Positions 36,097 through 36,920 of a DNA stretch of 49,593 bases are shown here, one piece after another (within the stretch, counting starts at the first letter, position 1; each line of letters starts with the position of its first letter). The notes below the pieces were generated by a model. That model was not told the origin of the DNA. It searched no databases and saw only the letters and a program-made list of their open reading frames with translations. A program made the position numbers and the translations under genes. Source of the stretch: a virus. The DNA is taken from the IMG/VR virus record IMGVR_UViG_3300042731_003675, positions 1 through 49,593 of that record. One strand, 5' to 3'.

Positions 36097-36138
36097 ACCG
36101 ACTGATTAACACGCTATATGCGGTTAAATCGGTTTTTA
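36097..36138 (+). terminator. Intrinsic terminator before the RNA locus
   Basis: ACCGA (36097..36101) pairs with TCGGT (36129..36133), TTAAC with GTTAA inside it, then CGC with GCG around a TATAT loop. The hairpin runs into TTTTTAT. It ends the transcript of the two genes starting at 35609 and gives the RNA locus at 36140 an independent boundary. Confidence 0.72.
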
Positions 36139-36139
36139 T

Positions 36140-36845
36140 CTCAACACCCAAAGACCTGTGCAAATATATAAGCAAGGCAAGGTGAGAGAATAGGTAAATA
36201 TGCTGAGAGTGGCGAAATTGGTGAGTCGCATCGGGACAGGTTCAATTCCTGTCAATAAGTTATGGTACTGGAATCCTCACCATTGGTAGACGCTAAGTTC
36301 CATAAGGTGAAAAGCCCTAATGGGGTGAATGACAACGTTTTACATTTATGTAATTTATGATCACCGTGCAGGTTCAAATCCTGCCTCTCAGCACAGGATC
36401 AGGGTCGTTAACAGTGGGTATGATATCAGAGCGAAGTGGCGATGCTCTAAGGGTACGAAATGGCCATAGTACTAATAATAGCCACTAAAAAGACCTACAT
36501 TATACCCACTACTAACGGCCTTGATACAGGGCAATGTTAAACTCACACAGGAGGTAAAAACTTTTGAACTTAACAATTGTGGCCGGTCGGTCACACAATT
36601 AAAACAGAATGATCAAAAATATTTGATTAGTGAGTTTGCTGGCAGGTTCTCGCATGACCGTCCCGATAATAAGAGTAAAGGTCGTTAATATTACCGCCTG
36701 CCAGCAAAAATTGGGGATATGATGAGTCGGTGCAAATTGGGACCGTTCCCCAAAGTAAAAGCCCTTGAGTGCCAAACAAAGCGACCATCAAGGTGTTAGT
36801 AGAGCAACCTGCTAGGCACAAAGGGGCACAATTAAGATTTGAGTT
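36140..36845 (+). ncRNA. Large ornate structured RNA locus of about 700 nt, adjacent to tRNA-Glu
   Basis: No frame here looks coding, but successive long helices can be read by eye. (1) Acceptor-like helix 36202..36209/36385..36392. (2) A 13-pair helix 36398..36410/36513..36525, a 2x2 internal loop, then 9 pairs 36413..36421/36502..36510. (3) 36540..36546/36630..36636 enclosing two hairpins. (4) 12 pairs 36635..36646/36697..36708. (5) 36711..36717/36747..36753. (6) CCCTT+GTGCC (36762..36773) with GGCAC+AAGGG (36815..36825). Size, complexity, phage origin and tRNA neighbourhood resemble GOLLD- or ROOL-type giant phage RNAs. Sequence homology to either was not tested. A weak -10-like ATATATAA lies near 36165. 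Confidence 0.7.
36202..36393 (+). ncRNA. tRNA-Leu-like domain with a D-loop insertion
   Basis: The outer 8-pair stem GCTGAGAG/CTCTCAGC encloses TGGCGAAATTGG (tRNA-Leu D-arm start) and GACGCTAAG (D-arm end). It also encloses a normal T-arm, GCAGG-TTCAAAT-CCTGC (36368..36384). Between the two halves of the D-loop lie 66 nt flanked by a duplicated ATTGG. The insert is closed by GGTGAG/CTCACC and holds a second T-arm-like hairpin (GACAGG-TTCAATT-CCTGTC, 36235..36253). No 7-nt anticodon loop with a 5-bp stem is evident, so it is unlikely to work as an ordinary tRNA. It could be a tRNA remnant or a tRNA mimic. Confidence 0.6.
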
Positions 36846-36920
36846 GTGAGGCATTGGTCTAGTGGTTAAGATATCGGGTTTTCGCCCCGTTGACAGGAGT
36901 TCGATTCTCCTATGCCTCAC
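36846..36920 (+). tRNA. tRNA-Glu (anticodon TTC)
   Basis: GTGAGGC pairs with GCCTCAC at the ends. The D-arm GGTCTAGTGGTTAAG is standard. The anticodon loop TTTTCGC carries TTC between GGG and CCC stems, and the T-arm is CAGGA-GTTCGAT-TCTCCTA-like. All parts of a 75-nt tRNA are present, with no encoded CCA. It immediately follows the structured RNA locus, with one-base spacing to the last readable helix region. It may supply GAA decoding to this AT-rich genome. Confidence 0.93.

Follow-up and report, generated by a model that had tools for sequence, protein, structure and literature searches.

Positions 36635-36708 of the window, the 49,593-nt stretch of phage DNA analysed here (IMG/VR record IMGVR_UViG_3300042731_003675), belong with high confidence to a new family of structured RNA, in which a near-invariant core, with a hairpin (P2) held by two pseudoknots, is closed by a helix of variable sequence (P1). 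The family is new in that it has no relative in Rfam 15 and none in the open-access literature searched. The reading that we favour, with a probability of about one in two for the family and its mechanism together, is that of a small phage RNA gene that rides on tRNA operons.

The region upstream of tRNA-Glu resembles a series of small elements

A sequence-only reading of the window had described a locus of about 700 nt beside tRNA-Glu as a giant ornate RNA, possibly GOLLD- or ROOL-like or of a new class. Several of its observations held. The region (36140-36847, 708 nt) was non-coding, had no credible coding frame and belonged to no Rfam family, and it was strongly structured, with an RNAfold energy of -217.6 kcal/mol relative to -180.4 +/- 6.0 for shuffled sequences (z = -6.2; 0 of 20 shuffles as stable). 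Both long helices that it had singled out were present, one running from 36398 to 36526 with its 13 + 12 pairs arranged around a 2x2 internal loop and the other being P1 of the new module, and the neighbouring gene was confirmed as a tRNA-Glu (Table 1). As for the terminator proposed just before the region, a hairpin followed by TTTTT was visible at ~36098-36137, but a simple terminator scan made no call.

The proposed identity found no support. When all 4227 Rfam models were searched over the region at E ≤ 10, only tRNA pieces and one chance-level match were returned, with no GOLLD and no ROOL. The GOLLD model (RF02032; the accession RF01998 given earlier is that of group-II-D1D4-1, a piece of a group II intron) had no match in the whole window record; in the same search it scored 164 bits (over the cut-off) in G031, a record of 435 kb, and 114 bits (below the cut-off) in G006, both motif-bearing records, which indicates that the model works in this search. 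The ROOL model (RF03087) likewise had no match in the region or the record, in a search that was run without a ROOL positive control.

A single giant RNA, whether GOLLD/ROOL-like or new, was therefore judged very unlikely, given the absence of these matches and given that the conserved module is independent elsewhere: its relatives stand alone as units of 60-96 nt between tRNAs, while the remainder of the region has no relatives in the motif-bearing loci compared. In its favour are the stability of the whole stretch and the occurrence of GOLLD and ROOL RNAs near phage tRNA islands (PMC12286853). As to the context trait of GOLLD, more than 400 nt of structure near phage tRNAs, a tRNA-Glu is adjacent and the region is structured, but the structure is likely that of several separate elements. 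The region is best read as several small elements in succession: one conserved module, a cloverleaf like that of tRNA-Leu with a large insert, and several hairpins for which no relatives were found. There was no sign of one 700-nt RNA, and the idea of a new class stood for the 74-nt module and not for the region. Two distant terminase relatives of the window phage were found, and the one that was searched lacked the locus.

Table 1. Elements between 36140 and 36920 of the window and parts of the new RNA.
Feature	Position	Strand	Evidence
tRNA-Leu(CAA)-like cloverleaf, ~106 nt inserted between anticodon-like and T arms	36202-36393	+	MFE fold; separate element
Long 13+12 bp hairpin element	36394-36530	+	z -5.5; no relatives found
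Multi-hairpin element	36532-36634	+	z -3.2 (fold of 36532-36646); no relatives found
Window copy of the new RNA family, a double pseudoknot closed by P1	36635-36708	+	Homologues, covariance model R1, covariation
P1 5' strand, pairs with 36696-36708	36635-36647	+	RNAfold, 13 pairs
PK1 5' strand UCG, pairs with CGA 36664-36666 in P2 loop	36650-36652	+	Covariation
P2 5' strand GACC, pairs with GGTC 36680-36683	36656-36659	+	Paired in 45/45
P2 loop, near-invariant GUNCCGR..AAGNG core, holds PK1 3' (36664-36666) and PK2 5' strands	36660-36679	+	
PK2 5' strand UAA, pairs with UUA 36691-36693	36676-36678	+	Covariation
AAU linker	36687-36689	+	Both A invariant in 45 copies
P1 3' strand	36696-36708	+	RNAfold, covariation
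Weak hairpin	36709-36760	+	z -1.6, not above chance
Branched hairpin element	36755-36840	+	z -3.7; no relatives found
tRNA-Glu(TTC)	36848-36920	+	ARAGORN; Rfam RF00005, 64 bits

The minimum free energy fold of 36202-36393 contained all four arms of a cloverleaf (acceptor, D, anticodon and T), the anticodon-like loop reading CAA (z = -2.5 for 36202-36394). ARAGORN, with introns allowed, also placed a tRNA at these positions, but read it as Val(tac) interrupted by a 102-nt intron, and the tRNA model RF00005 scored 15.4 bits, below its cut-off of 29. The usual group I intron is longer than the insert of 100-106 nt. A flanking segment, GACCTGTGC (36153-36161), can pair with GCACAGG at the 3' end of the cloverleaf. 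Elsewhere, a similar insert-bearing tRNA lies 3' of the motif in a Sulfitobacter plasmid (L048), and tRNA matches with inserts of ~40-65 nt were seen in phage or plasmid DNA at L048 1937-2074, L042 8889-9006 and G006:C1:74281-74403; unusual, enlarged tRNAs may be common in such arrays. Apart from the module, none of the elements had relatives in any motif-bearing locus compared. Within the multi-hairpin element, an AGGAGG is followed 9 nt on by a 12-codon TTG frame (36549-36602), which could be a leader peptide or chance. A tmRNA was sought in the window and none was found.

The module recurs in phages of Rhodococcus, Microbacterium and Sulfitobacter

The module itself (36635-36712) folded at z = -4.6 relative to shuffled sequences (RNAfold), and it is not a tRNA. 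In a sensitive DNA search, Rhodococcus phages Francesca and Dorin matched 36637-36698 with non-coding DNA that separates tRNA genes (87% over 62 bases, E = 4e-11), and Sulfitobacter phages matched 36649-36689, likewise with non-coding DNA. Scans of IMG/VR with a progressively relaxed core, combined with searches of named phages and plasmids, gave 45 distinct places with the module after removal of duplicates and two chance matches; these were in phages of Rhodococcus, Microbacterium and Sulfitobacter and in many IMG/VR contigs. The two removed candidates, Arthrobacter L020 and IMG/VR L052, were chance matches in coding DNA.

A covariance model, R1, built from 32 of the 45 copies recovered all 45, including copies outside its training set (L021, L047 from Microbacterium phage Zooman at E = 8e-9, L050, L051 and L053-L059). 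The window copy, which was in the training set, scored 84.7 bits (E = 3.7e-21) and had each feature that defines the family, that is P1, P2, PK1 and PK2, all four helices being formed, the GUNCCGR...AAGNG core and the AAU linker. Including P1, the module measured 60-96 nt across the family and ~74 in the window.

No Rfam 15 family matched any copy tested, except for permuted-tmRNA matches that spanned the module as their intervening segment. A strict pattern, which fits about half of the known copies, had a single match, by chance in coding DNA, among 84,980 species genomes of bacteria and archaea, so that the family seems to be limited to phages and a single phage-like plasmid of Sulfitobacter. 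An exact 41-nt pattern had no match in IMG/VR.

A single copy was present in 33 of 35 records, among them one of 435 kb and one of 309 kb with 66 tRNA matches; one record had two copies and one had three. The three copies of the latter, the 270-kb record G006 (L017, L028 and C1:74953-75033), lie on both strands. At L021 (8346-8466), a 42-nt hairpin is inserted by the 3' strand of P2 together with another GGTC, as though the motif had undergone a partial duplication. One 218-kb phage record has a further repeated non-coding motif, TTACAGGNGCGGTANCCA, of which two copies closely follow the new RNA (L014 3620-3637 and 3768-3785); TTACAGGNGCGGTANCCA was absent from the other motif-bearing loci compared.

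Paired positions change together in P1 and in the pseudoknotted core

Covariation, a check proposed beforehand on which the claim of structure could have failed, was present in the helix closing 36635-36708. In the alignment of the 45 copies (A3), 90% of cells were paired and 13 of 19 pairs changed on both sides, counts that were made without removing relatedness among the copies. The covariation score was 0.444 relative to 0.135 +/- 0.010 for shuffled alignments, and slid registers scored no higher than 0.13. A3 was fitted to a model with P1 and P2 only, so that the fit does not favour the pseudoknots, and RNAalifold recovered P1 and P2 unprompted. In P1, all eight pairs counted across the family changed on both sides, the letters drifting while the pairing was kept; P2 was invariant except for its outer pair, G-C becoming A-U in L018 and L019.

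In PK1, the 5' half of the P2 loop pairs with the strand that precedes P2; in PK2, the 3' half of the loop pairs with the strand that follows P2. One PK1 pair was U-A in 36 of the 45 copies and C-G in the other nine (mostly UCG/CGA, with CCG/CGG in nine); a PK1 pair was broken in a single copy, L013, and PK1 extended to six contiguous Watson-Crick pairs in L047 (Zooman), L050, L055 and L059. PK2 showed C-G replaced by U-A in five sequences at one pair and A-U, G-U or G-C at the next, and was broken at one position in 9 of 45. An initial candidate for the first pseudoknot, CUC/GAG, was rejected: it had looked perfect in 32 sequences, but the search pattern had dictated the letters of its two strands, and variants broke it in 9 of 45, whereas the UCG/CGA register keeps the pair.

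Invariance of the core is partly built in, since copies were collected with patterns that fix core letters; P1, the AAU linker and the 3' strand of PK2 are free of this constraint. Conservation in the linker was 1.00, 1.00 and 0.96, its two A lying outside every IMG/VR pattern that found copies. UAAGAG may resemble T-loop or RNase P motifs, a likeness on which we base no claim.

The strong conservation of the core letters would also be seen if selection acted on the DNA or on a peptide instead of on RNA structure. We regard this as extremely improbable, given that the pairs of P1 change on both sides throughout, that PK1, P2 and PK2 co-vary, that the orientation to tRNAs is fixed and that the drift and indels of P1 are unfit for a conserved frame.

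Most copies neighbour tRNA or tmRNA genes

Of the tRNA and tmRNA genes in the fetched stretches, 380 were on the strand of the motif and 2 were on the opposite strand. At least 30 of the 45 copies were beside such genes: with ARAGORN, 28 were within 200 nt of a tRNA or tmRNA or inside a permuted tmRNA (24 when the distance was set at 30 nt), and Rfam added L030 and L006/L007. Many copies extend all the way from the 3' end of a tRNA to the 5' end of the one that follows it, and at L018, L021, L023, L044, L051 and L057 the motif occupies the gap between two tRNAs. In two phage groups (L025 with its duplicates, and L030) a permuted tmRNA has the motif as its intervening segment, bounded on one side by the CCA end of the acceptor piece and on the other by the beginning of the coding piece. 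The window copy lies 139 nt before tRNA-Glu. Linkage to tRNAs is not universal, since at least eight copies (L003, L009, L010, L022, L027, L031, L034 and L054) had no detectable tRNA in the fetched stretch.

The module lies where a cut is needed, whether it separates two tRNAs or the two pieces of a permuted tmRNA. The main rival to our reading is that of a new small self-cleaving ribozyme that separates tRNA or tmRNA precursors, a candidate activity that we consider rather unlikely. The size of the module, its double pseudoknot, its covariation and its near-invariant unpaired AAU and AAGNG fit a published profile of ribozyme candidates (50-80 nt, conserved positions, pseudoknots), but the ten such candidates that were assayed showed no cleavage (PMC10085705). 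Moreover, there is one copy per genome though an array has dozens of spacers that would need cutting, tRNAs are already separated by RNase P and 3' processing, some copies lie far from tRNAs, and no Rfam ribozyme family was matched, the known ribozyme models giving nothing at E ≤ 10 in the window and in the Rhodococcus phage locus L002. Twister, HDV-like and glmS ribozymes have a compact, doubly pseudoknotted core; the module is like these in size and architecture but has no Rfam match or known catalytic core.

P1 often runs from the end of one tRNA to the start of the next (L018, L025, L030, L051 and L057) and could thus stack on acceptor stems, as might be wanted of a cis-acting spacer, either a structural cap or a nuclease landing site, that aids the folding or maturation of the adjoining tRNA or tmRNA. 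This role is improbable: a plain hairpin would suffice for it, conservation is much stronger in the core than in P1, though it is P1 that touches the tRNAs, the module is present in single copy, and a role confined to cis fits poorly with the copies that lie away from tRNAs.

The module may be a small RNA gene carried by tRNA operons

One copy per record is what is expected of an RNA gene and not of array-wide punctuation. This single copy, the core shared by phages of Actinobacteria and Alphaproteobacteria, and the habit of occupying spacers expected to be removed as tRNAs and tmRNAs mature fit a small RNA gene of tRNA operons. The module would be transcribed together with the neighbouring tRNAs and, judging by its position, could be released by their maturation enzymes, with RNase P cutting at the 5' end of the following tRNA and 3' processing acting on the preceding one. 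Less firmly, the freed knot might act in trans on a component common to Alphaproteobacteria and Actinobacteria; by analogy with the unexplained RNAs of phage tRNA arrays, the putative target may be translation, tRNA-handling or tRNA-targeting defence machinery. Release by tRNA maturation followed by action in trans is proposed tentatively. It is also conceivable, and we hold it with similar caution, that the module is a new self-cleaving ribozyme class or a host-targeting decoy RNA, retained by phages of at least two bacterial phyla in their tRNA arrays and even as the segment excised from permuted tmRNAs.

Relation to other RNAs of phage tRNA arrays

The broader setting has precedents, as phage tRNA arrays hold structured RNAs without known roles. 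The tRNA cluster of phage T4 contains RNAs C and D, stable small RNAs of unknown function that are made with the phage tRNAs; their relation to the new module is one of analogy only. A manA RNA (RF01745) lies between tRNA-Met and tRNA-Lys of Rhodococcus phage Francesca (L002 2643-2825), a phage that also carries the new motif between tRNA genes, but manA has 192 positions and is unrelated in sequence and structure. GOLLD is also a structured phage RNA near tRNA islands with unknown function, and it co-occurs with the motif in G031 and possibly in G006, both large-phage records (matches at G031:C1:299655-300084, ~23.5 kb from the motif, and G006:C1:56744-57237); it differs in its length of 500-800 nt (416-position model), and neither its sequence nor its model matches the window. 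ROOL is similarly a phage or prophage RNA that is often near tRNA islands (PMC12286853), but its model has 574 positions and no match here. A homo-oligomeric RNA cage characterises both GOLLD and ROOL.

The new module is small and sharply conserved and is present in isolated, cultivable phages (Zooman, Francesca, Dorin and pCB2047-A/C). Its structure is open to compensatory swaps, so that the ribozyme and trans roles are directly testable. That nearly the same core is retained in very different phages indicates that the module probably does a job that is important to many of them.
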